Source: a virus
Virus record (IMG/VR): IMGVR_UViG_3300020123_000239
Location: 1 to 41,490 of that record
Direction: 5' to 3' (one strand)
DNA length: 41,490 nucleotides
Part shown: positions 17,848 through 40,147 of the stretch, in pieces
Layout of the letters: every line of letters starts with the position of its first letter
Position numbering within the stretch: position 1 is the first letter of the stretch
Notes under the pieces: generated by a model
Database searches by the model: none
Told to the model about the DNA's origin: nothing
The model's input: only the letters and a program-made list of their open reading frames with translations
Made by a program: the position numbers and the translations under genes

Positions 17848-18729
17848 TCATCGCTTTTTGCTCTTCCCCGTGCCGAGGCACGTGCCGACAAAGCTATGGT
17901 TCTGCCGGATGGTCGGACAGACCGTTGAGGCCACGTTGGCGAACACCACCTCGAGGCAGCACTGGCTCTCCCAGATCTGGTTGAGTTCGTGGTCCGTGAC
18001 TTCGAGGTGAACGGCGCTCTCATAGATGTCGACGAGCGCATGGTCCGTTACCTCGAGGTGAACCGCGCTCTCGAGGATGTCCGGCGCCGCGTGGTCTGAC
18101 ACCTCGAGGTGAACCGCACTGATCCCGGTGTCGACCATTGCATGGTCGGAGACTTCCACCGCGCCCTGGGTGATGTGGATTCCCGCGGACGGAATCCCGC
18201 CCATCAGGTTCAGGCTTGCGGATTCGCTGGTTGCCGGAGCTTCGGTATCGCTCGCCGAATTCGGCGTGACGATGCGGGCAAACTCGAAGGTGGCCGGCGC
18301 CTCGGTATTGCTGATCGAAAAAACGAAAAGCGTGGCTACTTCGGAAGTGGCCGGCGCCTCGGTATTTGAGGCGCTGAGGTTGAGATTGAGTGTTGCTGTT
18401 TCGCTCGAGGCCGCGGCTTCGGTTTCGGATGCACTCAGCTCAAACTTGAACGATGCGGATTCGGAGGTTGCCGCGGCTTCCGTATTCGAACTGGAGAGAC
18501 TAACCGTCCCACTGATCGAGACAGAGGCCGATTCACTGGTGGCTGCAGCTTCCGTTTCAGAAGCCGAGAGCTTGAATTTAAATGTCGCGGCTTCGCTCGT
18601 CGCCGCGGCTTCAGTGTTGGAGGCTGCGAGGCTCTGAGTGAGAGGAAGGAGCGCTGCAACCGGTAGCGGCTTCGAGCGTCGCCGTCTCTTGGGATCGTCC
18701 CAAAATAACGGTCTGCGGCGCTCGATCAT
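17848..18729 (-). CDS. repeat protein, 293 aa, probable virion appendage
   Basis: After a basic N-terminus (WDDPKRRRRSKPLP) the protein consists of two repeat arrays. About seven copies of a 20-residue unit with core NTEAAATSESAS lie at residues 35-176. Four or five copies of a 17-residue unit with core SAVHLEVTDHALVDIYE lie at residues 189-261. A short Cys-containing tail ends in KSKKR. It lies among tail or appendage genes and just ahead of the ejection genes, so a surface fibre or decoration role is plausible. No known family is recognised. Confidence 0.7.
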   Translation of the reverse strand: MIERRRPLFWDDPKRRRRSKPLPVAALLPLTQSLAASNTEAAATSEAATFKFKLSASETEAAATSESASVSISGTVSLSSSNTEAAATSESASFKFELSASETEAAASSETATLNLNLSASNTEAPATSEVATLFVFSISNTEAPATFEFARIVTPNSASDTEAPATSESASLNLMGGIPSAGIHITQGAVEVSDHAMVDTGISAVHLEVSDHAAPDILESAVHLEVTDHALVDIYESAVHLEVTDHELNQIWESQCCLEVVFANVASTVCPTIRQNHSFVGTCLGTGKSKKR

Positions 18730-21476: not shown

Positions 21477-22015
21477 TAGATTGGGGCTCCGATCAGGTAC
21501 ACCGCCACCCACCAGTTGCCGCCGCCCTGCAAGATGTCGATCACCACGTCGTCGTTTTCCGCGATCTGTAAATTGGTGGTGAAGTCCGAGAACTCATGCA
21601 CGGTGCGCGATCCGGCGTTAGCGGGGACGATGGGCTTCAACGTGAAAATCGAAACGCCGTTCTTGCGGATGTCGATCTGGAACGGGTTCGTCGAGTCGGC
21701 CGACTTCACGCGGATGCGGCAGGTATTCGGTGCAAACGCCACCGGTGGAATCACCGGGTCCGACACATCGAGCGCGACGGTGGGGTCTTGGATATCCCAC
21801 CCGATGATGTTCTGGAAGGGGCCGTTATTGTTGTTAATGATGGTCGTGACATCCGAGAGTTTTTTCGCCAAGCGCTCGAAGAAAATGATCCAGGTGCGGG
21901 TGAGGTGTTTCGAAATCCCTCCGCCCGAATTCTGGTCCTCGATGAACATCGGGGTTTCGATCGGGACCGAAGGGATGGTGGTCTTGCCTGCACCGGCTTT
22001 CGTGCCCGCTGCCAT
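21476..22015 (-). CDS. virion structural protein, 179 aa
   Basis: The start at 22015 gives MAAGTKAGAGKTTIPSVPIE. The N-terminal part includes SKHLTRTWIIFFERLAKKL, an amphipathic helix, followed by a short Asn run. The C-terminal 110 residues are beta-rich (CRIRVKSADS, FQIDIRKNGVSIF). It is coupled (TAATG) with both neighbours. A needle-, plug- or adaptor-like role is possible by position. No clear family. Confidence 0.65.
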   Translation of the reverse strand: MAAGTKAGAGKTTIPSVPIETPMFIEDQNSGGGISKHLTRTWIIFFERLAKKLSDVTTIINNNNGPFQNIIGWDIQDPTVALDVSDPVIPPVAFAPNTCRIRVKSADSTNPFQIDIRKNGVSIFTLKPIVPANAGSRTVHEFSDFTTNLQIAENDDVVIDILQGGGNWWVAVYLIGAPI

Positions 22016-23901
22016 TACGCACCCCCTGCGAGCCAATCGAGATAAGCATTGATCAGCGAGATTTTGGTATTGCCGGTGACGGTCACGCGGAAAACGCGAT
22101 CGCGCCCCGAGCCGAGCCGGTTGAAGATCGCGCGCGCTTGCGGCCGGAAGTTCGGATTCGAACCGCTATCGAGCTGGGGAACTGTTACCGTCATCGCGTT
22201 CGAGAAGGTGTGCCCGTTGTCTTTCGACCAGTCGAGCTTTACAGTGAGCGCGGCGCCGCCGGTTTCGAGATCGAGCTGCAACCGGTGGAAGAACTGGCGC
22301 AATCCGGCTTCTGACAGATGCGGGAAGGTCCGAACGCAGTAAATCGTCTGGCCGTTGTCTTGGTAAGTCGCCGTCGAAAGCGGATAGATCGCGCCTGAGG
22401 AGTGATCCCCGACATAGTGCACCCCGGCCGCGTTCGCCCAGCTCACGAAAGCATGGCCGCGCGCGGGGTGTCGGTGGAAGGTGGTTCCATCGGTCGAATA
22501 GGTCCACTCGTGCCAGAGAGGTTTGCCGAACTGGGCCGATGCGGTGATGTCATAAACCCACGTCGCATCGGCCGCGTTAAAGCTGAGCACCCAGAATTCG
22601 TGGCCGTCGAGTTCCAACATGAAACTCTCGGCATCCTGCACGGTCGAATAGCCGGACCAGACTTGCTCCACCGCATGCGTCGAAACTCTCTGCGGTTGGT
22701 AGCCTTGCCCGCGATAGGCGACGATGCCGCCTTCGAGGTCGGTCCCCAGCCAGATCGGCCCTTGCCGGGTCGAGTTGGCCGCGCGGATCGACGCCAGGCC
22801 GATCGGAATGAACGCGCCGGGGTCGCGCTGCATGGGCGCGCCTTCGGCCGGTGGGTTGTCGAGCGATCGCCAGATTTCCGATGACGACTCACCCAGAATC
22901 CACAGGTCCTCGTGATCGGCCAGAATCGCGCCGATGTTATCCGGGTAACCTTCCTTGATTCCGAAGTCGAGCGGGTCCCAGGTCTTGCCGTCGAACACGG
23001 CCGAGAAGTCGATTTCCTTCGAATCGGGTTTGGCCACGATGAAATAGCTGTCGAGGAACGTGCCCGTTTGCGCGGTCACTCCGAGCCCCGCGACGCTCCA
23101 GGCCGAGCCCGCTTGAGCGCCCGCACTACCGGTGAGCGTGAGGTGGGTCTGATCCTGGACTGAGGCCACCGTGTAGGAAGCGCCGTTGATCACGATGGTT
23201 TGCCCCACCATGCCCTGGTTGAAGAGCGGGCCGCTGTCCCAGGTCACGGCGGTGCCCGTGACGTCGGCGGTTCCACCCACGGCAAAGACCGTATAAGCCA
23301 CGGCGGTTTGCGTGCCGGCGCTCGACGTGAGCACCAGGTGCTGATTGTCCGTGACGGAGGCGACGGTATAGCCAACCCCGTTGATGATGATTTGCTGGCC
23401 TGCCATCGCGGCCGTGAAATTGTCGCCTTCGTCCCAGGTAACGGCCGTGCCGCTCGTATCCACGACGCCATGCGCGGAAATGAAGAGAGGCTGCGCGACC
23501 GTGATTCCATCCGCCAGATAGAATTTGCCGGCCGAGACGATGCCCAACTGGTTGCCGTTCGGAATCATCTGGACGGGCGAATGCGCGGAGTCGTCGCCGA
23601 CGTCGCCCAAGAGGCTGGAAGTTCCACCCGAAAAGACTTCGTAGAGCTTGGAGCCCGCCACGGCGAAGAGCCGGCCGCCGGTGGTAAGTGGGGCCCCGCC
23701 GGCGAACAACCCCCGGATTGGCGAGGTGGGAAGCGTGATGAAGGGCGCGCCGATCCCGGGCCGTGCCCGGAGCATCCCGACAGACTTGGTTTCGCCGTCC
23801 GCTTCGATCGCTTCCGGGAAAAGGTTCTGCGATCGCTGGCAGGCAGCGTTCACGCTCGCCGCGAGGTAACTCCCGCCGATGAATCCCGGAAATCGCTTCA
23901 T
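22015..23901 (-). CDS. packaged DNA stabilisation protein, P22 gp10-like
   Basis: A 628-residue protein whose N-terminus (FPGFIGGSYLAASVNAACQR then QNLFPE) is characteristic of P22 gp10-family head-closure proteins, which sit below the gp4 ring and hold packaged DNA. The following beta repeats (RGLFAG, GRLFAVAGSKLYEV) are propeller-like, and the C-terminal half is WD/propeller-like in pattern. P22 gp10 is about 470 residues. The extra length is partly due to two adjacent copies of a roughly 60-residue domain at residues 148-208 and 213-271. It lies directly after the gp4-like genes, as in P22. Confidence 0.85.
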   Translation of the reverse strand: MKRFPGFIGGSYLAASVNAACQRSQNLFPEAIEADGETKSVGMLRARPGIGAPFITLPTSPIRGLFAGGAPLTTGGRLFAVAGSKLYEVFSGGTSSLLGDVGDDSAHSPVQMIPNGNQLGIVSAGKFYLADGITVAQPLFISAHGVVDTSGTAVTWDEGDNFTAAMAGQQIIINGVGYTVASVTDNQHLVLTSSAGTQTAVAYTVFAVGGTADVTGTAVTWDSGPLFNQGMVGQTIVINGASYTVASVQDQTHLTLTGSAGAQAGSAWSVAGLGVTAQTGTFLDSYFIVAKPDSKEIDFSAVFDGKTWDPLDFGIKEGYPDNIGAILADHEDLWILGESSSEIWRSLDNPPAEGAPMQRDPGAFIPIGLASIRAANSTRQGPIWLGTDLEGGIVAYRGQGYQPQRVSTHAVEQVWSGYSTVQDAESFMLELDGHEFWVLSFNAADATWVYDITASAQFGKPLWHEWTYSTDGTTFHRHPARGHAFVSWANAAGVHYVGDHSSGAIYPLSTATYQDNGQTIYCVRTFPHLSEAGLRQFFHRLQLDLETGGAALTVKLDWSKDNGHTFSNAMTVTVPQLDSGSNPNFRPQARAIFNRLGSGRDRVFRVTVTGNTKISLINAYLDWLAGGA

Positions 23902-23908
23902 AGCGGGC

Positions 23909-24652
23909 CTACTCCGTCAGTCCGGTGAAGCGGTTGTAGTTGCCGCCGAGCCCGTTGCCGCGCCGCGTCTTCAGTGCCGGGTCTCCGTGCAAGAGCAGCT
24001 TCGGTGAGTTCTTCGATTCGATGAGGGCCTTCGCCTGGCTGGCCAGCATCGTCAGTTCGGGCGTGGGGCGTTTCGCGAATTCAAGCGCCAGGCGGACGGC
24101 CAGGTTCAGGACGATCGCATCTTCGTACCCGGGCGGAAGGATGATGTTGTCGGTAAGGGCCGCGTAGGTCGAGAGCTGCTGCCAGGTGTAAAGCTCGATC
24201 GTGTAGGCGGCATCCGGAATCGGGTAAAAGTACAGCGTCGAAAGCGGGTCATTGCCGTCGTTATACAGCTCGGCCGGGAAGGTATAGACCTCCTGGAGCC
24301 GCTTCGCTGCCCACTGCTCATCCGTCATCAGGACGAGCGGCCGCCGGATGACAGGCGACTGCGAAAACTGTAAATTCGCGCTCACGATCTGGGTGGGACG
24401 CGGCGCGTTGAAGTCGGCCGTGAGGATGTGGGCCGGGTCGATCCCGATGGTGTAGCTCTGCTTCTGGTTCGTGAGCGTGTAGGTGTCGAAGCGAACCGTG
24501 AAGGCGTTCAGTCGATCCGCGCACCAGGCGTCGAGCATCCGGCGAAGCTCTTCGAAGGAGTCCGTCAATTCATCGGTGTTCGGGATCTGCCCCTGTGCCA
24601 GCACGTTCGATTTACGGAGCGCGGCACGGATGGCATTCTGAACCGTGATCAC
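23909..24652 (-). CDS. head-tail connector / tail accessory factor, gp4-like, copy 4
   Basis: A 247-residue member of a set of four tandem paralogues. Common features are an N-terminal helix (VQNAIRAALRKSNVLAQGQ), a helix with LRRMLDAWCADRL, the strand pair KQSYTIGIDP, a central LSTLYFYPIPDAAYTIELYTW and the hallmark LPPGYEDAIVLNLAVRLALEF near residue 170. P22 gp4 forms a 12-mer under the portal and plugs the head exit. A GTG start overlaps the previous stop. This copy has the longest C-terminal tail. Confidence 0.82.
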   Translation of the reverse strand: MITVQNAIRAALRKSNVLAQGQIPNTDELTDSFEELRRMLDAWCADRLNAFTVRFDTYTLTNQKQSYTIGIDPAHILTADFNAPRPTQIVSANLQFSQSPVIRRPLVLMTDEQWAAKRLQEVYTFPAELYNDGNDPLSTLYFYPIPDAAYTIELYTWQQLSTYAALTDNIILPPGYEDAIVLNLAVRLALEFAKRPTPELTMLASQAKALIESKNSPKLLLHGDPALKTRRGNGLGGNYNRFTGLTE

Positions 24653-25341
24653 GCAGCCACCTTCACGGGCGCGACGGGCGGAGGCGGAGGCGGATAGAGC
24701 AGCTTGTTTTTGTTCTGGAGGGTTGCCTTGGCCAGCTCGGCATTCGCCATCAGTTCTTTGGTCACGGGCTTGTTAAAGGCCGGGGCGAGGATCAGAGCGA
24801 GCGCGCAAATGATCGCCCATTCGTAGCCGTCGGGCAAGTTGAACGTGTCGGAGAGCGCCGTCACATTCGGGATCGGGAGCCAGGTGAAAAGCTCAAGCGA
24901 AGAGTTCGAAGCCGCGGGAATCGGGTAAAGATAGAGCGTCGAGTTCGGGTAGGCGTAATCGTCGTAGAGCACCTTGGGCAGGGCGCTCGTGTCGGACTGC
25001 ATCCCGAGTGCGTTCCATTCGTCGGCCGTCGCGAGCTTGAGCGCGCCGCGGATCGCTACCGCGTCGCCAATGACGATGGCGGCAGCCTCGATGCGCACCG
25101 GGCGAGCGGCGGTGAACGTCGCGCCCGAGGGTCCGATGGTGTAGCTCTGGGTGCCCGCGGTCAGTGAGAACGTGGACTTTGCAATCTCGTAAATGTAGAG
25201 GCCATCGTTCTCCCAGCTCGACAGCATCGCCTGGAGAAAGGGCAGTGAGGCTGCGGATTCGGAAGCGCCCGACGTCCGGCCAGGCCCGAGCCGGCCGATT
25301 TGAATCAGCGCGCGATCGATGATGTTCTGAACGGTGCTCAT
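24649..25341 (-). CDS. head-tail connector / tail accessory factor, gp4-like, copy 3
   Basis: A 230-residue paralogue with STVQNIIDRALIQIGRLG at the N-terminus, TQSYTIGPSGATF, STLYLYPIPAASNSSLELFTW and LPDGYEWAIICALALILAPAF. The TIG and PxGY signatures match the other copies, while overall identity looks low, so the duplication is old. Overlaps both neighbours by 4 nt. It ends in a short Pro-rich tail (LYPPPPPP). Role as for copy 4, by family and position. Confidence 0.8.
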   Translation of the reverse strand: MSTVQNIIDRALIQIGRLGPGRTSGASESAASLPFLQAMLSSWENDGLYIYEIAKSTFSLTAGTQSYTIGPSGATFTAARPVRIEAAAIVIGDAVAIRGALKLATADEWNALGMQSDTSALPKVLYDDYAYPNSTLYLYPIPAASNSSLELFTWLPIPNVTALSDTFNLPDGYEWAIICALALILAPAFNKPVTKELMANAELAKATLQNKNKLLYPPPPPPVAPVKVAA

Positions 25342-26024
25342 GAGGCCTTCTTGAGGTCAGCGCCAGGCGCCGCGGGATGCTGTGGCAGGGGATCACCCGG
25401 CATGGTGTTATCGCCGAAGATCGCCTTGTTCGTCGAGATGATTACGCCCTTCGACTGGAGCGCGAGCGCCATCATGCCTTGCGCCAGGTCGAGCCGCCCG
25501 AACTGAGTCGCGAGATCGACGGCCAGGTTCATGGTCAGTCCGCGCGCGTAGCCTGGCGGCAGGTCGATCGAGGTCGAGAGCGTGGCAAAGACCGAGAGCG
25601 GCGCGAACGTGATCAGAGTCAGTGAGGCCGTGGCCGCGGGCCACACGTAAACGTTGCTCGTCGGATAGGCGTAGTCGCAGTACATCTTGGTCGCGTAGGT
25701 GCCTGATCGCGACTCGTCGATGATTTGCGCCCACTGCTCGGCCGAACAAACTTCAACGGGGGAACTGATGTTGCCGGAGCTGCAATAGGCCGCTTTGATT
25801 TTGAGCGGCCGGGCCGTGGTAAAAGGTCCGGCTCCCCCGGTGGCCACGGTGACTTTTTGCTCGACGGGTACAATGATCTGCTCGACTGACCAGGAGTCGA
25901 TGAGCTTATTCAGGACGATCAGGCCGTCGTTACTTTCGTCCGTTGAGGGCGATTCGCCCGAGGCCAGAATCCCGAGTTCTTTCATGGCGTCGGTGATGAG
26001 CTGCTGCCCGGTGTAGGAACTCAC
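25338..26024 (-). CDS. head-tail connector / tail accessory factor, gp4-like, copy 2
   Basis: A 228-residue paralogue: YTGQQLITDAMKELGILASG, then VLNKLIDSWSVEQ, SNVYVWPAATASLTLITFAPL and LPPGYARGLTMNLAVDLATQF. It lacks the SYTIG strand motif seen in the other three, having FTTARPLKIKAA directly, so it is the most divergent. A GTG start overlaps the previous stop. Part of a co-translated set of four. Confidence 0.8.
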   Translation of the reverse strand: MSSYTGQQLITDAMKELGILASGESPSTDESNDGLIVLNKLIDSWSVEQIIVPVEQKVTVATGGAGPFTTARPLKIKAAYCSSGNISSPVEVCSAEQWAQIIDESRSGTYATKMYCDYAYPTSNVYVWPAATASLTLITFAPLSVFATLSTSIDLPPGYARGLTMNLAVDLATQFGRLDLAQGMMALALQSKGVIISTNKAIFGDNTMPGDPLPQHPAAPGADLKKAS

Positions 26025-26731
26025 TGGTTCGCCTGGCCTTTCTCGATGTCAGTCATGGTGAGCGGCTGCTGCGCACTCACTCCGATCGGGGCCAACGGCT
26101 GGCCGAGCGATACGCCGTTGATCGCGGCGAGCGCCTGCTTGGCCTCGTGGGCTTTCGCTACCACCGCCTGGTCCAGATGGGAGCCAGCGAATTCGGGGGC
26201 CATGTTCACGGCAAGGTTGAAGCTGAAGGCGTCCTCGTAGCCCGGCGGGAAACTCACGGTATCCGAGATCGCGGAGAAAGCCGCGAGGGGCTTCACGCTC
26301 CACAGGTCGAGCGATCCGGAGGCCGGGGCGGGCCACAGAAAAATGGTTGCGAGCGGAAATTGATAATCACATGCGAGCCAGTCGGCAAAAGCGCCGGTCA
26401 CTCCGCGATCGATGATGGTCGCGAATTTCTCGGCACTCACGATCTGGCAGGGCATGGAAACGGAGCCGGTGACCACGGCCGCCGCGCGGATTTTCTCCGG
26501 CCGCGACGTGTTGAAAGTTCCGGTCGATCCGATCGTGTAAGAGGCCGCACCGGTAAGTGAGAACGTCTCTTTCTTGATCTGGTAAATCGTCAGGCCTTCG
26601 ATCGAGAAGGCCGAGAGCAACTGGTTGGCAAGATTCAGGCAGTTGGTGTATTCACCGGTTGCCAGACTTCTGCCCGCCTGGAGAATGCCGATTCTCCGCG
26701 CGGCTTGCTCGATGTAATCCTGGACGATCAT
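26021..26731 (-). CDS. head-tail connector / tail accessory factor, gp4-like, copy 1
   Basis: A 236-residue paralogue, first transcribed of the four. Features are IVQDYIEQAARRIGILQAG, ANQLLSAFSIEGLTIYQI, AASYTIGSTGTFNTSRP, ATIFLWPAPASGSLDLWSV and FPPGYEDAFSFNLAVNMAPEF. It abuts the stop of the 58-aa gene. As the P22 order is coat then gp4, this copy is the positional equivalent of gene 4; the other three are extra. Confidence 0.82.
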   Translation of the reverse strand: MIVQDYIEQAARRIGILQAGRSLATGEYTNCLNLANQLLSAFSIEGLTIYQIKKETFSLTGAASYTIGSTGTFNTSRPEKIRAAAVVTGSVSMPCQIVSAEKFATIIDRGVTGAFADWLACDYQFPLATIFLWPAPASGSLDLWSVKPLAAFSAISDTVSFPPGYEDAFSFNLAVNMAPEFAGSHLDQAVVAKAHEAKQALAAINGVSLGQPLAPIGVSAQQPLTMTDIEKGQANQ

Positions 26732-26908
26732 TTATTTCGTGGCCTTGCGGGCTTTCGCGATCGCCGGGTCGGGTTTGACGCCGGGCGCGGTCTCGATGCC
26801 GAATGCGGCCGGGGAGTCTTCCCAGCCCTTGCCGAGTTCCTTCTCCTCTTCGGGAGAGTTGACGATCTTCGGCTCTTCGGTCGCGTGGTAACGGAACGAT
26901 GGGTACAT
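26732..26908 (-). CDS. small conserved-looking phage protein, 58 aa
   Basis: The start at 26908 has AAAGGA at good spacing. The sequence MYPSFRYHATEEPKIVNSPE, with a following EEEKELGKGW and DSPAAFG, matches a short protein I recall near head-tail genes of many phages; it has no assigned role. Charged and probably soluble. It lies between a terminator hairpin and the first gp4-like gene, whose ATG abuts its stop. Confidence 0.7.
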   Translation of the reverse strand: MYPSFRYHATEEPKIVNSPEEEKELGKGWEDSPAAFGIETAPGVKPDPAIAKARKATK

Positions 26909-26920
26909 GCAAGTCCTTTC

Positions 26921-26957
26921 GGAAAAGTGGGGCGGCATCGTATCGAGAGGCCGCCCC
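26921..26957 (-). terminator. stem-loop terminator after the 26972 gene
   Basis: GGGGCGGC (26929-26936 complement) and GCCGCCCC (26950-26957) form an 8-bp stem. The leftward RNA continues ACUUUUCC. It overlaps the leader of the 58-aa gene, so it may attenuate rather than fully end transcription. Confidence 0.55.
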
Positions 26958-27787: not shown

Positions 27788-29032
27788 TTAGCCTTCGATC
27801 GCGCAGGCCATTTCGCCGTAGAGCTTCCCGAAGTCGTACAGCACGTCGGCGCGGTTCACTTCCTTGCGGTAAACCGGATCGAATGCGCGGATCATGGAAA
27901 TCGCGAGGCCGGTCTCTTCGTCGCGCTCGCGGGTGACCAGGGCGCCCATGCCGGGCTCGGGGTCATTCAGCGGGACGCTGACGAAGGCGAAAGCGTTCTT
28001 GTGCAGCAAGAGGGCTTGGGGCGAAGTCGTGGACGCGGGTCCATCGACCGTGATCGCGGCGCCGTCGACGGGAGCCGAGTCAACGTTCTGATACTGGCCG
28101 GTCGGGGTGATTGCGGGTGCGATCGAGACGCTGCCGTTGCCCGATCCATCGGAGCTGAAATCGGCGAGGACAACGAAGCTCTGCAAGCGGCCAGTCGACT
28201 GGCGGGTCTGCGGATGCACGCTGAACACGTTGGCGATAGTGAAGCGATCGCCGGCCTTCAGGCGGGAAGCCGCCGCGCCGGTCCAGCCGCGCGTGGTCAG
28301 GCTCATCGTGCCGTTGTTGCCGCCATCGGCGGTCTGGGCTGCCGTCGACGCATCCACGAGCGGAGTGCCACCGTACGGGCCGGTCTTGCGGCTGTAGATG
28401 GTCTGGTCGCGGAAGACGTTATAGCCGAAGCTGTCCACCATCCGGCCCTGTTCCCATTGCTTCGAGATCGCGCCGGTCGGATTGAACAGCGTTTTCACGC
28501 CGTGCACGAAGGAGCTGGAAATCTTGCGGTTGACGATCAGGTTCAGCTCTTCGCCTTCGGGCAATCCCTGTTCGACCAGGATGTCGCCGGCGGTGAGGAA
28601 CGGCAGATCGTCGGTGGGGGTGGTTCCCGGCGTTCCCGCCTGGTTCCAGGTGTTGAGTGCGATGAACTGCGCGGCTTCGGCGTTGATCTTCGAAGCGAGC
28701 GCGATCGCGAGCGGCTTCGCATACAGTTCGCGAGCTTCGCGGATCGAGAGGGTTTTCTCCACCGAGTCCCACTCGTAGGCGACCTGGGCAACCTGGCCGA
28801 CTTTGATCGGGGTCACCTGGTCGGTGAGGGACTGGGGATCATATTTCAGACCCTTCGAAACGGTGAAGCGGTAGGGCTTGCGAACTTCTACGCTCGCGCC
28901 CACCTTGAAACTCTTCTTCCCGAATTCGGGAGAGAGCGCGGGGGACATGTTGCGGCAAACGTTGAGGGCGTTGCCGAGGTCCATCAGGACCAATTTGGCG
29001 AACACCTGCGGGGTTAAAACAGCATTCGGCAT
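27788..29032 (-). CDS. major capsid (coat) protein, P22 gp5-like
   Basis: A 414-residue protein close to the 430 residues of P22 gp5. Features include MPNAVLTPQVFAKLVLMDL at the N-terminus, GKKSFKVGASVEVRKPYRF, IREARELYAKPLAIALASKI, a long central insertion domain and the C-terminal DPVYRKEVNRADVLYDFGK. It forms the icosahedral shell with an HK97-type fold. It follows the scaffold gene as in P22. A strong AGGAG and the GNRA-loop hairpin precede the ATG, consistent with very high late expression. Confidence 0.9.
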   Translation of the reverse strand: MPNAVLTPQVFAKLVLMDLGNALNVCRNMSPALSPEFGKKSFKVGASVEVRKPYRFTVSKGLKYDPQSLTDQVTPIKVGQVAQVAYEWDSVEKTLSIREARELYAKPLAIALASKINAEAAQFIALNTWNQAGTPGTTPTDDLPFLTAGDILVEQGLPEGEELNLIVNRKISSSFVHGVKTLFNPTGAISKQWEQGRMVDSFGYNVFRDQTIYSRKTGPYGGTPLVDASTAAQTADGGNNGTMSLTTRGWTGAAASRLKAGDRFTIANVFSVHPQTRQSTGRLQSFVVLADFSSDGSGNGSVSIAPAITPTGQYQNVDSAPVDGAAITVDGPASTTSPQALLLHKNAFAFVSVPLNDPEPGMGALVTRERDEETGLAISMIRAFDPVYRKEVNRADVLYDFGKLYGEMACAIEG

Positions 29033-30166: not shown

Positions 30167-32368
30167 TTACGCTGCCTGCGGTTCCTGTTCAGAACCGGTG
30201 TCCGTAGTATTCATCGGCAAACTGGCGATCTGTTGTTCGTGCTGCTGCTGGATTGCCGACTGCTGGGCCTCATGGGCCTGTTGCTGCTGCTGCAAACTCT
30301 GTTCGTGTTGCTGGTCTGCCTGTTGCGTCACCGCTTCGTGCAGGCGTCCGTACTTGGCATCGAGGGCCGCGATTTCCGCGCGCAGCAGCTCGACACCCTG
30401 TTGCTGGTTCAGTTCGGCGAAAGCGATCGAGCGCTTCGTCTCTTCCTGCATCGCAACGATTCTTTCCCTCGAGGCGGATTCCACGGCCTTGGTTTCGATC
30501 TCCTGGGAGAGCGCGTGGACCTGAGCAACAAGCGCCTCGTGCTGCTGGGCCATGAACTGCATTTGCGCCTGCACCTGGGGTGGGAGCGGCTGCTGCTGGC
30601 CTTTCTGTTCCTGGAGCGCCGGCGGAAGGACTTTGCGGTAGCGTTCGGCGATGCGTTCTGAGCCGGGGGCGTCGAGCGAATCGAACAGAATATCGCCCGC
30701 GATCTGCATGAAGTTCTTGTCGGCGTTCGCGATCTGGCTGTAAACGTCGAAGGCTTCCTCACGCTGGCTGGTGTAGGACTTGCCCGTGGAGACGGCGACG
30801 CCGTATTCGCCCTGGTCGAGCTGGTGATGCACGACCTTGCCGCTTTCCGGGTCCTGGTAGGGTGTCGGCGTGTTCACCCGTACGGTGCTCGTCTTGCCGT
30901 CTTCACTCCGGACCGGGACGTTCTTTTCGCCGCGATCGATGATCGGGATCAGTTCGAGGAGAATCCGGCCGAGACACTTACGGCTGCGAGCTTCATTGTC
31001 GTGGAAATGGAAGTTGGCGTTGTCGGCTTCTTTTTGCCGGCGCTCGATCGCGATGCCGGCGGTTTCGTTCGACTTCGCGCCCAAGCTGGCATCGAAGATT
31101 CCCATCGCCGCTTTGATCGCGTCGACGCACTGGTTATAGCCGATGACTAACGCGCGGATCGGAGGTTCGGAGGTGACCCGTTGCGGCGCCGGCACGAGCT
31201 GCTGGGTGCCGTTCACCGTGACCACGACGGGGCGGTATTGCACCACGGCTTGCGGGAGGTTGTTGATGTTCTCCCATTCGTCCTCGTGGTTGGCGATCTG
31301 CCCTTCGGCCGCGATGTAGGGCGTCTTCGGCATCTGCCCCACCTGTTCGGCCATGTTGGACACGTATAGGTTGAGCAAGCGTTGAGGGTCTTTGGCGAAG
31401 CGGATCAGTGAGAGCGTCCGCCGCTTGCCGTCGACGATCATTTCGCGTCCCCACAAGGGAACGATCGGAATGTAGCTACCGAGCCACTCGGTCTCGTCCA
31501 GAATTTCTACGCCGTCGATGATGTACTGGCAGACGGTGACGCAATCTTCTTCGCGGGTTTCGAGGATCGCTTCGTCGGGAAAGTCTTTGGGCAGCTCGTC
31601 GCGGTAGGCGATGCCTTCGACGTTCATGCCGCGGGAGAGTTCGTGACGGATGCGGCAGAGAGTGCGCGTCTCGTGTTCGCGGATCCAGTATTCCGCGATC
31701 TGCACACCGCCGCCGTCTTTCCCTACCCCGATCCAGTCCGGAGCCGGGTTTTCCTGGTCGGTGTAAAACGAATTGCGGCAGAGTTCCGTCTTGTTGCCGA
31801 AGCGCCGTCGATGCTCGTCGGCTGAAATTGTGGTGAGGACGAACCACCAGTCCGAATCAGAGCGGTCATACTCGCGCGCGTTCGGATCGCACAGAACCGA
31901 GAATTGATTCTCGATACGCTCGATGCGCAGCTCCTGGTCGAAGCTGCCTTTCTTGTAGCGGGTCGAAACGCGATAGAAGCCGCGGCCTGAGGTTACCTGT
32001 TGTTCGCGTGACGTGTCGTAGGCGATGTCTGCGTCGGACTCGTACTCGATGTGCCGGATTCGGCCCTGCAACATCTCGGCGGTTTCTTTGGTTCCCCCGT
32101 CGAGCGGGGTAAGCCGGATGGCGGGCTTCGACTGGCGGCCGTCGTTGACGACTTGCGCGGTGAAAGTCTGGAGCCGGTTTTCAGTGAGGACGGGCCGCTC
32201 GGCCGCGATGCGCTGGTCTTTGGCTTCCTTGTTCCACTGATCACCCGCCGCAAACGCTACATCTTCGACGGCCTCTTCGCGGTCCTCGCGATCGACGGCC
32301 ATCGCATACGCGAAGCGCTCCCGCGCCAGGCGCATGAATTCGGTTACGTCTTTGACTTTGCTCGGCAC
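30167..32368 (-). CDS. portal protein, P22 gp1-like
   Basis: A 733-residue protein, almost the length of P22 gp1 (725). The GTG start at 32368 follows the stop of the 72-aa gene by 1 nt. Portal-typical segments are the N-terminal FAAGDQWNKEAKDQRIAAER, then RPVLTENRLQTFTAQVVND, PAIRLTPLDGGTKETAE, the central IPIVPLWGREMIVDGKRR and the later SNETAGIAIERRQKEAD. The C-terminal 130 residues are Gln-rich coiled coil (HEQSLQQQQQAHEAQQ), like the barrel of P22 portal. It forms the dodecameric DNA entry ring. Confidence 0.9.
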   Translation of the reverse strand: MPSKVKDVTEFMRLARERFAYAMAVDREDREEAVEDVAFAAGDQWNKEAKDQRIAAERPVLTENRLQTFTAQVVNDGRQSKPAIRLTPLDGGTKETAEMLQGRIRHIEYESDADIAYDTSREQQVTSGRGFYRVSTRYKKGSFDQELRIERIENQFSVLCDPNAREYDRSDSDWWFVLTTISADEHRRRFGNKTELCRNSFYTDQENPAPDWIGVGKDGGGVQIAEYWIREHETRTLCRIRHELSRGMNVEGIAYRDELPKDFPDEAILETREEDCVTVCQYIIDGVEILDETEWLGSYIPIVPLWGREMIVDGKRRTLSLIRFAKDPQRLLNLYVSNMAEQVGQMPKTPYIAAEGQIANHEDEWENINNLPQAVVQYRPVVVTVNGTQQLVPAPQRVTSEPPIRALVIGYNQCVDAIKAAMGIFDASLGAKSNETAGIAIERRQKEADNANFHFHDNEARSRKCLGRILLELIPIIDRGEKNVPVRSEDGKTSTVRVNTPTPYQDPESGKVVHHQLDQGEYGVAVSTGKSYTSQREEAFDVYSQIANADKNFMQIAGDILFDSLDAPGSERIAERYRKVLPPALQEQKGQQQPLPPQVQAQMQFMAQQHEALVAQVHALSQEIETKAVESASRERIVAMQEETKRSIAFAELNQQQGVELLRAEIAALDAKYGRLHEAVTQQADQQHEQSLQQQQQAHEAQQSAIQQQHEQQIASLPMNTTDTGSEQEPQAA

Positions 32369-32369
32369 C

Positions 32370-32588
32370 TTAGTTGAGGTTCTGGCCGCCCGCGCTCGTG
32401 GTCTGGTTCGTTTGCACCGTCCACATCGGGTAAGTGTTCGGCCAATACGGGTACGGCCCGTTGTAGGGAACATGTCCGCAGTGGGGGCAACGTCCGCAGT
32501 GAGGGCAGGACTGCCCGAGGAATTGCATGTAGGAGGCGGTTTGGCTGTTGCCGAGGTTGTTCAGTTGCGAGTTCTGGATGTCGTTCAT
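32370..32588 (-). CDS. small protein with CPHCGRCPHCG motif, 72 aa
   Basis: The ATG at 32588 gives MNDIQNSQLNNLGNSQTASY. Residues 28-38 carry CPHCGRCPHCG, a compact metal-binding motif. The rest is Asn/Tyr/Pro-rich. No clear SD sequence precedes it. It ends just before the portal start. The role is unknown. Confidence 0.55.
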   Translation of the reverse strand: MNDIQNSQLNNLGNSQTASYMQFLGQSCPHCGRCPHCGHVPYNGPYPYWPNTYPMWTVQTNQTTSAGGQNLN

Positions 32589-33060: not shown

Positions 33061-34206
33061 TCAGTGGCAGGTGCCTGAGGTGATTTCCGAGACCGTGGCG
33101 TAACCGAGCGTCTTGCCGTCTGACTTCCAACAAACGACGGTATTGGGGCTGCCCGTCATCTGTACCAGGAAATTTCCGTTCGTGCCCATGACGCCGTTGG
33201 GGAAGCCATCGAAGAAGTACGCGCCATTGTTCGTCCCGCCAAGGGGAAATCTCAACCCATAGTCGAACGGTTGGATGGCACAGGAGCCGAGAGCGCGGCC
33301 TGCATCCTCGTGGTAAAAGCAGGGCGTCGCCGTGGTGATGTTGCCCCATGTCGATGAGGTGGGGACTGTCAGAGCGGAATCCGGCTTGTTGTAGGTGTAG
33401 GTGGACCCGCTGTATCCCACCGGCAAAAAGTCAGCCAGATAGTATTGAGAGCCGCCCGCCTTCGTAACCCACACGTTCGTGCCGGCGTACAGCGGGTCGG
33501 TGGATTGGTTGAGATTCCCGATGAGAATCTGCCCGTCCACGGTGTTGTCGGTGACTGTGACTGATACGAGACCCACCGGGTAAGTGTCGCCACCATTCGT
33601 TGCCCAGGTAATCGCGACATGGTGCACGCCGTTCGTCACGGAGCCGGCACCCGCTCCGGCAAGAGCAGCGGTCGGAGTTTGAATCGTATCTTCCCCGAGG
33701 CCTGCAACCCACCAGATTCCGTGCCGTGTCGGAATCACCCACTTGTCGCCGAGGGTGTGTCCTGTCGACGCATTCCAATGCACCACGAGACCATCCGCCA
33801 CAGCCGCGTCCGTCGTGGTCACATTGACCGGTGAGGAGAAAGCGCCACTGTTGCGAGCCCAGGCGTAGGTATCGGGCGTGCCTGTGCCGACGATCTTGAT
33901 AATGATCGTCTCTGGACCAGAACCCGTGTAGCAAGGCTGCTCGTTCGCGAGAGTGCCCATGAGCAAATCGTTCAATCCGGAGCCTACAAACTCGCCGCCA
34001 TGATCGAGAGTCGTCATCGTGGAGAGGGCGAATGCCGGAGTGGCAAAGGCCGCGGAAAACGGTAAGCAGGGAGGCTGAGTGCTCCCGACCTGGATGCCTT
34101 GAAAAGGGGTGAGCCCGTTTCTGACAGTCGTTCCCTTGGGCGGCCCCTGCGTGATCTGAGCGAACGCGGCCGAGCCGAGAAACAGGAATAACGCGAGCCG
34201 TCTCAT
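33061..34206 (-). CDS. exported protein with signal peptide, 381 aa, between terminase and portal
   Basis: MRRLALFLFLGSAAFAQ is a Sec signal peptide; the ATG at 34206 overlaps the previous TAA. The mature protein is Thr/Gly/Asn-rich and beta-patterned throughout. It has repeated short strands (SVTVTDNTVDGQILIGNLNQ), a segment YYLADFLPVGYSGSTYTYN, and the C-terminal VVCWKSDGKTLGY with a late Cys. It resembles an exported adhesion or surface protein and not a cytoplasmic phage enzyme. It is bracketed by late elements B and C, which suggests a separately expressed cargo unit. The function is unknown. Confidence 0.72.
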   Translation of the reverse strand: MRRLALFLFLGSAAFAQITQGPPKGTTVRNGLTPFQGIQVGSTQPPCLPFSAAFATPAFALSTMTTLDHGGEFVGSGLNDLLMGTLANEQPCYTGSGPETIIIKIVGTGTPDTYAWARNSGAFSSPVNVTTTDAAVADGLVVHWNASTGHTLGDKWVIPTRHGIWWVAGLGEDTIQTPTAALAGAGAGSVTNGVHHVAITWATNGGDTYPVGLVSVTVTDNTVDGQILIGNLNQSTDPLYAGTNVWVTKAGGSQYYLADFLPVGYSGSTYTYNKPDSALTVPTSSTWGNITTATPCFYHEDAGRALGSCAIQPFDYGLRFPLGGTNNGAYFFDGFPNGVMGTNGNFLVQMTGSPNTVVCWKSDGKTLGYATVSEITSGTCH

Positions 34207-34316
34207 TAACAGTGCCTCGCGAGAAGAATCGCGATCGAAATTCCGATCCACGGTAAGTGCTGGTCTGCGAGCTTGCGCAGCCAATGCCGCCGATCGGCGG
34301 AGTAGTGAGTCATCAT
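34206..34316 (-). CDS. small membrane protein, 36 aa
   Basis: The start at 34316 overlaps the stop of the 34313 gene, and its TAA overlaps the ATG of the exported protein. MMTHYSADRRHWLRKLADQH is polar and basic, and the last 14 residues (WIGISIAILLARHC) are hydrophobic. This is an N-in, C-terminal-anchor layout. It is short, but coupling on both sides supports translation. Confidence 0.5.
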   Translation of the reverse strand: MMTHYSADRRHWLRKLADQHLPWIGISIAILLARHC

Positions 34317-37984: not shown

Positions 37985-38590
37985 CTATGCGACGCGCTTC
38001 TGTTCGACCAGGCGTGCGCGTGCGAGCCCGATATCGATCACGTTGCGCGCTTCTCCTGTCGAGATTCCCAGACGTCCGGCGACGTCGCGCAAGGGCCGCT
38101 CTTCCATGAACCGCATTTGGAGGGCTTCGGCTTCGTGCGGCGGTAAGTGGTCTAAGATCGAGACCACACGGCAGCGGGTTTCCACCGCCTCCGCGGCCTC
38201 GGAAGCACGGTGATCCGGGATTTCGATCCGCTCCCCATTGCCTGTTTTCCCGTAAAAATGTGGCGAACGCTCCGGATGGGCATAGGTCCGGAACTCGAAT
38301 GCATCCTCCACCGACGGGTTGGAATTTTCCCGGAGATGCCGGCGCCGGACCAGCTCGAGCATTTCGCCGCGGATCCGCCTCGAGGCGAAGGTCCGGAAGC
38401 TGGCGCCTGAACCGGGCCGGTACCGGCGGGCTGCCTGCACCAGGCCGATGTGGCCCGCGCCCTGGAAATCCTCCATGGAAACCTGGGGATGGGTGCGCCT
38501 GACGATGCGCGCGATCAATTCTACGAGGTCCGTGTTTTCTTCAACTTGCCTGTGGAACGACGATGCCGGGACGGACTCCCGGCGGGGCAT
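37985..38590 (-). CDS. sigma-70 family factor, FliA/SigB-like (group 3)
   Basis: 201 residues from ATG 38590; a longer frame to 38686 seems untranslated. Region 2 (17-86) includes DLVELIARIVRR, MEDFQGAGHIGLVQAARRYR, GSGASFRTFASRRIRGEML and ELVRRR. The RIRGxMLxE(L) signature of region 2.4 is shared with FliA and SigB-type sigmas, which recognise GCCGATAA-like -10 boxes. Region 4 (134-194) includes LDHLPPHEAEALQMRFMEE, then RDVAGRLGISTGEARNVIDI. Region 3 is reduced. As first gene of the leftward late unit it is well placed to direct host RNA polymerase to the late elements. Confidence 0.85.
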   Translation of the reverse strand: MPRRESVPASSFHRQVEENTDLVELIARIVRRTHPQVSMEDFQGAGHIGLVQAARRYRPGSGASFRTFASRRIRGEMLELVRRRHLRENSNPSVEDAFEFRTYAHPERSPHFYGKTGNGERIEIPDHRASEAAEAVETRCRVVSILDHLPPHEAEALQMRFMEERPLRDVAGRLGISTGEARNVIDIGLARARLVEQKRVA

Positions 38591-38659
38591 GACGATGACG
38601 CGACCCAAGTGGCCTCTCAGAAAAACTGTATTGAACTGCTGGTGAACACTGGTACTTAC

Positions 38660-38690
38660 GGTACTGTTTTTCACACAGGAAAACAATACC
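38660..38690. promoter_or_regulatory. operator-like inverted repeat upstream of the sigma gene
   Basis: GGTACTGTTTTT and GAAAACAATACC are nearly perfect complements (11 of 12) separated by a few bases, in an AT-rich segment 70 nt upstream of the sigma-gene start. A further half-site GGTAC lies just before it. This layout suits repressor control of the late sigma gene. Confidence 0.45.
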
Positions 38691-39190: not shown

Positions 39191-40147
39191 TCACACCCCG
39201 AGCATCGAGACCGCACCCCGGAAACAGTCTTGCTTCCGGAAGTAGCGCCGGAGCACGTTCATGTCACGATGCCCGGTCTGGTGCGCGATCAACAAATCGC
39301 TGGCGCCACTTTCTCCGGCGGTCGTGACGAAGCCCGAGCGCAACGAGTGCCCCGAGTAGAATTGGGGGTCGAGTCCGATTCTCTGGGCGCACTGCTTCAC
39401 CACCAGGCCAATGCGTTCGGGGACGAGCGGCAACGCCTGCAAAGCTCCGGTAGACGCGAACCGCGTGAAGAGCGGCCCGGGGAAACCGCCGCGCCGCTCC
39501 ATCCAGTCAGCGAGCGCGCCCACTGGGCAAGTTTCGATCGCGCTGCCCTTGGGCAATCCGATCATGCGGCCTCTTCCCTCCTGATCGTTTTTCTCCCGGT
39601 TGATTCTCAGCAAGCATCCCGGCTCACAGAACTCCACGTCGTTCACGTGGAGAGCCGCGAGATTCGCCGAGCGCAGGGCGCTCACGAAACCGGTGAGGAT
39701 GATGGCGCGGTTGCGAATGGCGATTGGGGTTCCTTCGGCCGCAAGCGAGATCGCGATCGCGCGCACGTCGGCAAGTTGCAAGGGTCGCATGCGTCTCACT
39801 TGTTCGGTGCGCATTCGCTTCGCGCCGTGGATCAGTTGGCGCACGTCGCGAGTGACTGGAGACTTGAGCGAGAGCGCGCGATGCATGTAGGCGACGGCCG
39901 CGACGCGACGAGTAGCGGTCGAGGTTTTCTTGCCATCACTCAACATCGAGGTGGCGTAGAGCGAGACCGTTTCTTCCTCTGCCGGCAGCGCGCGCAGCTC
40001 CATGTCGAAGCACCATTTCTCGAAGTGCTTCCAGTCGTACTTGTAGCCTTGGCGCGTGTTGACGGCCAGGAGCGACTCAGTGAGTTTGGCCCGCTCGACA
40101 TGGAGTTGTTCGAGACGGGCAGCGATTTCTGGGGAGGTGTCGAACAT
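39191..40147 (-). CDS. int: tyrosine recombinase, phage integrase
   Basis: 318 residues. An N-terminal SAM-like core-binding domain (about 10-110, TRQGYKYDWKHFEKWCFDME) is followed by a catalytic domain with all expected residues: Arg159 (VSALRSANL), Lys186 (NREKND), His267 and Arg270 (GHSLRSGF), His293 (TGHRDM) and Tyr302 (VLRRYFRK). It has no lambda-type arm-binding N-terminal domain. It would insert the phage genome into the host chromosome. The long frame on the opposite strand is an artefact of GC-rich DNA. Confidence 0.93.
   Translation of the reverse strand: MFDTSPEIAARLEQLHVERAKLTESLLAVNTRQGYKYDWKHFEKWCFDMELRALPAEEETVSLYATSMLSDGKKTSTATRRVAAVAYMHRALSLKSPVTRDVRQLIHGAKRMRTEQVRRMRPLQLADVRAIAISLAAEGTPIAIRNRAIILTGFVSALRSANLAALHVNDVEFCEPGCLLRINREKNDQEGRGRMIGLPKGSAIETCPVGALADWMERRGGFPGPLFTRFASTGALQALPLVPERIGLVVKQCAQRIGLDPQFYSGHSLRSGFVTTAGESGASDLLIAHQTGHRDMNVLRRYFRKQDCFRGAVSMLGV

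Follow-up and report, generated by a model that had tools for sequence, protein, structure and literature searches.

Array of four adaptor genes

The window, 41,490 bases long and covering an entire IMG/VR virus record, belongs to a short-tailed, soil-type phage and carries on its minus strand (26731-23909) four consecutive open reading frames, here called C1 to C4, that lie between the coat gene and a gene of the gp10/nozzle type. C1 (26021..26731) encodes 236 amino acids and has a tail with the motif QxPLxxxDIE, which is conserved in the lineage. C2 (25338..26024, 228 amino acids) begins with a GTG within the stop codon of C1 and has a P.QPLPQ-like tail end, and C3 (24649..25341, 230 amino acids) has a proline-rich tail and matches the Pfam family SU10_adaptor (E 5e-11). 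These three are armless adaptor paralogues. The last gene, C4 (23909..24652, 247 amino acids), encodes an arm-bearing adaptor of the canonical type that presumably docks to the portal; tail comparison places its C-terminal arm in the last ~26 residues (...DPALKTRRGNGLGGNYNRFTGLTE, 23909..23989, minus strand). At the three junctions the genes overlap by 4 nucleotides (GTGA, ATGA and GTGA, read from the sequence), and such 4-base overlaps are typical of translational coupling. An earlier note on this DNA had reported four consecutive genes of 228-247 residues with 4-nt overlaps, which the reading frames and junctions bear out. The Y-P-x-P hairpin and L-P-x-G-Y helix that it listed as shared are also present, but in a slightly looser form: across C1-C4 the hairpin motif reads (W/Y)P, and (F/L)P(P/D)GY opens the later helix.

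All four proteins match phrog_12985 (E 2e-32 to 2e-38); their matches to phrog_637, a connector family (head-tail adaptor Ad3) of the PHROGs collection, are weaker. Pairwise identities among them are 31-39% and BLASTP between the pairs gives E-values of 5e-26 to 2e-44; by these sequence comparisons C1-C4 are true paralogues and not the outcome of chance similarity. Measured against the near-identical contigs L002 and L003, dN/dS is 0.053 for C1, 0.013 for C2, 0.028 for C3 and ~0.06 for C4, and values in this range (0.01-0.07) indicate strong purifying selection on all four copies. The locus L007 holds orthologues of C1-C4 in the same order with 57, 60, 53 and 57% identity, whereas each copy is 28-38% identical to the proteins at the other three L007 positions. 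Because of these distinct same-order orthologues and the low dN/dS values, we regard C1-C4 as old and separately maintained genes rather than as a recent or decaying duplication.

On the C4 side the array borders on the gene of a gp10/nozzle-type head closure protein (22015..23901, minus strand; phrog_578, head closure Hc3, E 4e-75), the presumed partner of the lowest ring in the arrangement proposed below. On the C1 side lie, on the same strand, the genes of a P22-type coat protein (27788..29032; PF11651, E 3.5e-30) and a P22-type portal protein (30167..32473; PF16510, E 2e-145), the latter being the presumed docking site of C4. Inspection by eye of the gp10/nozzle-type protein revealed two similar tandem segments of ~55 residues at about residues 150-265 (...TAVTWDxGxxFxxxMxGQxIxINGxxYTVASVxDxxHLxLTxSAGxQ...), a domain duplication within the nozzle gene for which no long DNA repeat was found; the protein also has a weak match to Phage_attach in Pfam.

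Some other minus-strand genes of the window may be mentioned. A reading frame of 57-68 amino acids (26732-26938, MYPSFRYHATEEPKIVNSPEEEKELGKGWEDSPAAFG...) ends just before C1 and has no match in Pfam or PHROGs. Between the terminase and portal genes, an odd location, the product of 33061-34284 weakly matches phrog_8040, a family of head-closure proteins (E 2.5e-6). The region 17848-18729 contains repeated S-x-TEA(A/P)ATSE units and possibly encodes a low-complexity structural or fibre protein, without a family match. A phage-borne RNA polymerase sigma factor is encoded at 37985-38686 (Sigma70 regions 2 and 4, E 8e-11 and 3e-8), and a tyrosine integrase at 39191-40147 (PF00589, E 2e-10), in view of which the phage is probably temperate.

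Fold and family membership of the array proteins

The AlphaFold2 models of C1 (pLDDT 94) and C4 (pLDDT 89) begin with two helices, which are followed by a central beta domain, a pair of long C-terminal helices and a tail; in the arm of C4 the confidence goes down to about 57-68. With both models, Foldseek searches against the PDB returned adaptor and ring proteins at a probability of 1.00, among them those of GP4, cyanophage A4, KHP30, N4, DEV, SU10, crAss001 and P22/Sf6. The best matches have modest TM-scores of 0.30-0.59, probably due to hinged domains. The closest PDB match of the C1 model is the portal-tail complex of Ralstonia phage GP4 (8jov), of which two different chains were matched. 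This phage belongs to a different phage group and possesses two adaptors, reportedly stacked as two dodecamers, and its likeness to the window phage is one of structure.

Sequence profiles built from the alignment of arm copies (A3) and from that of armless copies (A2) match the P22 gp4 chains in the PDB with E-values of 1.1e-5 and 1.1e-4, respectively. Since PF11650 (P22_Tail-4) gave no match in the window, membership of the adaptor family was judged by profiles and folds, and the array occupies the adaptor location between coat and gp10. Taking the profiles together with the fold of the C1 and C4 models, we assign C1-C4 to the P22 gp4-type head-to-tail adaptors; an additional central beta domain sets them apart from P22 gp4 itself. 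In C1 and C4 this domain matches by position the fibre-dock domain of the T7 and SU10 adaptors, which the adaptors of P22 and Sf6 lack (PMC9509320). P22 gp4 (166 amino acids) and Sf6 gp7 (160 amino acids) resemble C1-C4 in the profile match, the helix-bundle core and the place between coat and gp10, but each is the product of one gene, has no central beta domain and shares the arm with C4 only. As the tails of C1-C3 carry no arm, we class these proteins within the adaptor family as paralogues without an arm, not as canonical gp4. The term gp4-type is thus right for the family, while the domain make-up is closer to that of the crAss001 ring proteins. These results uphold the initial description of the genes as gp4-type connector paralogues: profiles match P22 gp4 chains, models match adaptors, and structure prediction of C1 and C4 gave the adaptor fold in both and no unrelated folds. 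That description did not include the extra beta domain, the restriction of the arm to C4 or the stacked barrel that phiCrAss001 builds from four paralogues.

Copy number and C-terminal arm among relatives

Cultured relatives have one adaptor place each in all 34 matching records of a phage collection, and the annotated neighbourhoods of cultured P22-like phages that were inspected contain a single copy. Relatives in IMG/VR carry 1 to 4 copies, with 2-4 being common among the uncultivated ones. The earlier statement that P22-type phages normally carry one gp4 gene therefore agrees with the collection records and annotated neighbourhoods but not with the uncultivated relatives. Adaptor matches also occur in genomes of Bryobacterales (Acidobacteriota), in 9 of 257. 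One of these genomes (G129) harbors a four-copy array (L229) with C-terminal tails identical to those of L007, and a single-copy Bryobacterales locus (L231) is probably part of an integrated prophage because it lies within a contig of 446 kb. The order of copy types is shuffled between relatives: the four-copy arrays L183 and L186 open with the arm copy and continue with two copies of the C1 type and one of the C2 type, as judged from tail motifs (QQPLxxxDLEQG, QPMPQSP). In eight two-copy loci (L015, L024, L034, L037, L039, L054, L057 and L062) the armless and arm copies are ~2 kb or more apart.

Almost every single-copy adaptor has an aromatic and basic C-terminal arm, for example ..GRRG.FNxxTGE, and the end of C4 (..TRRGNGLGGNYNRFTGLTE) resembles these ends. 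The tails of C1, C2 and C3 are rich in P, Q and A and have no arm; armless copies in multi-copy loci likewise end shortly past the last helix with a P-, Q- and A-rich tail. For counting, a tail was scored as an arm if its last 15 residues contained one or more of F, W and Y and less than 34% P+Q+A, a composition classifier that was set after the first sample had been seen and was then left unchanged for later loci. Counts refer to non-redundant multi-copy loci that are complete, i.e. flanked by coat and gp10 on the expected sides and free of cut copies. Exactly one arm copy was present in 22 of 22 loci of the first sample and, with the rule fixed, in 9 of 9 loci of the second sample and in the Bryobacterales loci L230, L232 and L234. 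Over the three samples this amounts to 34 of 34, with no locus having zero or two arms. Among 53 tails of complete single-copy loci, 3 (L069, L095 and L123) escape the letter rule. Loci that score zero arms have one copy cut by a contig end, and nine candidate exceptions (L006, L009, L016, L025, L028, L041, L055, L110 and L180) were rejected as contigs cut inside or beside the array. The arm copy is the last gene in the window and in L007, the first in L005, L042, L109 and L181, and a middle one in L147, so that the one-arm rule is not an effect of gene order. The first form of the rule, according to which the last gene is the arm copy, proved wrong since L005 and L042 carry the arm copy first.

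In a tree of 181 adaptor copies, calculated with the tail columns left out and with the tails of L069, L095 and L123 recoded as arm, the 66 armless rows fall into a single group (SH-aLRT 90); 4 changes of arm state are needed among the 181 rows. C1-C3 are found in the armless group and C4 among the arm copies. Related loci are not independent, and most of the one-arm pattern traces to one old arm loss. Later duplications occurred inside the armless group (copies 1 and 2 of L027, of L030 and of L180). Additionally, L008 and L011 have an armless copy in the middle that their relative L012 lacks, the other two copies being 76-86% identical, from which it follows that a single ring gene can be gained or lost. 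Thus, as far as these gene sequences tell, armless copies come and go and the arm copy stays single.

More than one adjacent gp4/tubeA homologue is also found in phiGT1 and Bcep22-like phages, where it has been attributed to recombination between ancient lineages and not to duplication within a lineage (PMC10386132). C1-C4 fall within one family tree of arm and armless groups. The two divergent adaptors of phiGT1 both count as arm-bearing under the same letter rule, and because the rule does not separate them the one-arm rule applies to this lineage and to crAss001 only. Dual adaptors of the phiGT1/Bcep22 kind are already known, as are the multi-ring barrels of crassviruses. Tandem arrays of three or four gp4 copies in P22-type phages and the one-arm rule appear to be new, none having been found in the open-licence literature searched.

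Proposed rings between portal and nozzle

The closest parallel is phiCrAss001 (crAss001), in which R1-R4 (gp43, gp40, gp35 and gp34) are, like C1-C4, four paralogous adaptor-fold proteins with a beta domain encoded in one genome. Its tail barrel consists of five stacked dodecamers of these four paralogous ring proteins, R1 being the portal ring (PMC10172136). Two of the rings come from one gene, gp34, and gene number is thus a lower bound for ring number. Under the arm rule R1 (gp43) alone has an arm-like end, ..RVTEFRRGFKNLGDKEYIRVH, and R2-R4 have none; the R1 gene adjoins the muzzle gene. R1 and C4 are therefore alike in being the sole arm-bearing paralogue, encoded next to a muzzle or nozzle gene, the portal position of C4 being the putative part of the comparison. 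In contrast, crAss001 belongs to the Crassvirales and has a 103 kb genome with paralogues that are 15-31% identical and partly scattered genes, whereas the window phage has a P22-type portal, coat and gp10 and a 41 kb record, its four genes adjoin and overlap one another, and its relatives carry 1-4 copies. Membership of the window phage in the Crassvirales was ruled out by the portal (E 2e-145), the coat (E 3.5e-30) and the 41 kb length.

Arms or loops that reach into the portal are known from other adaptors. In DEV the C-terminal arm of the adaptor inserts between two portal protomers, and a comparison with P22 gp4 was made there (PMC10925440); in SU10 an embracing loop of the adaptor wedges between the portal clips (PMC9509320); and the Peru-2 adaptor contacts the portal through arm helices. 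Considering the sequences and the analogy with crAss001, we think it probable (roughly three chances in four) that C1-C4 form four 12-mer rings stacked from portal to nozzle, with C4 as the portal ring, C1-C3 as spacers and a tail longer than that of P22. Each protein would make one 12-mer ring, and the four rings together would replace the one-ring neck of P22 by a longer barrel between the portal and gp10. The arm of C4 would wedge between portal subunits, so that C4 is the portal-contacting ring, while C1-C3, which would have lost the arm after an old duplication, would bind ring to ring in a presumptive order, the lowest of them contacting gp10. If a ring measures ~4.6 nm as in crAss001 (about 23 nm for five), four rings would span some 18 nm. 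A dodecameric portal offers one layer of arm sites, and stacked rings thus predict one arm copy per genome; ring number would evolve by duplication and loss of armless copies, with the single arm copy kept.

The earlier note had left the choice between a mixed and a stacked ring, and the stacked option is the one favored by the crAss001 analogy. For a dual-adaptor phage the phiGT1 authors also left it open whether there are 'two rings or one ring of a heterodimer'; those phages differ from the window phage in having two copies only. A single 12-mer layer in which the four paralogues take turns, for example three of each with the symmetry turned 3-fold, would accord with that statement and with the fact that 12 is divisible by 1, 2, 3 and 4, the copy numbers seen. 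It fits poorly with three of four copies having no portal-docking arm, explains neither the single arm nor the free gain and loss of single armless copies among relatives, and departs from the one solved four-paralogue case, crAss001, where the rings are homomeric and stacked. We consider it quite improbable, and its special form, a hetero-oligomeric 12-mer connector (e.g. 3+3+3+3) with a 3-fold neck, docked to the portal by its C4 subunits alone, very improbable; we know of no phage with a 3-fold symmetric neck. In line with stacking, the C1 model finds its closest PDB match in the GP4 complex, and a T7 paper that cites the GP4 and crAss001 work states that podophages have 'one to three dodecameric adaptors'.

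Extra copies may have another use and serve to attach additional or different tail fibres, with the beta domain of each ring holding its own fibre type and tail length being a by-product. The fibre-dock-like position of the beta domain, a domain missing in P22 and Sf6, speaks for such a role, as does the binding of fibre hubs by R1 and R2 of crAss001 (PMC10172136), but single-copy relatives have a beta domain of the same size. As the main reason for the extra copies fibre docking is unlikely; it is compatible with stacking and may be an added benefit. That some copies turned into proteins acting on the cell wall, into subunits for adhesion or into helpers of assembly that the virion does not contain, partly proposed in the earlier note, draws on the deposition of P22 gp4 in the PDB as 'Peptidoglycan hydrolase gp4' and on the muralytic activity that this protein is said to have. 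Searches of C1-C4 against Pfam and PHROGs found no hydrolase or adhesion domain, the models of C1 and C4 point to an adaptor fold, and the armless copies remain within the adaptor family under strong constraint. The cell-wall and adhesion option thus finds no support, and we give this explanation hardly any credence.

Little is known of how tail length is set in short-tailed phages or of how a multi-ring barrel arose from a one-ring neck, and the stacked-ring arrangement, if correct, bears on both. Within the lineage there are natural relatives that carry 1, 2, 3 or 4 adaptor genes, some of them closely related and one ring gene apart, and the arm is a sequence mark that names the portal ring in advance. 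With these relatives and this mark, the question of two rings or one mixed ring becomes accessible to gene removal and imaging. By analogy to crAss001, multi-ring barrels would occur beyond the crassviruses, in P22-type phages, some of them within Bryobacterales genomes.
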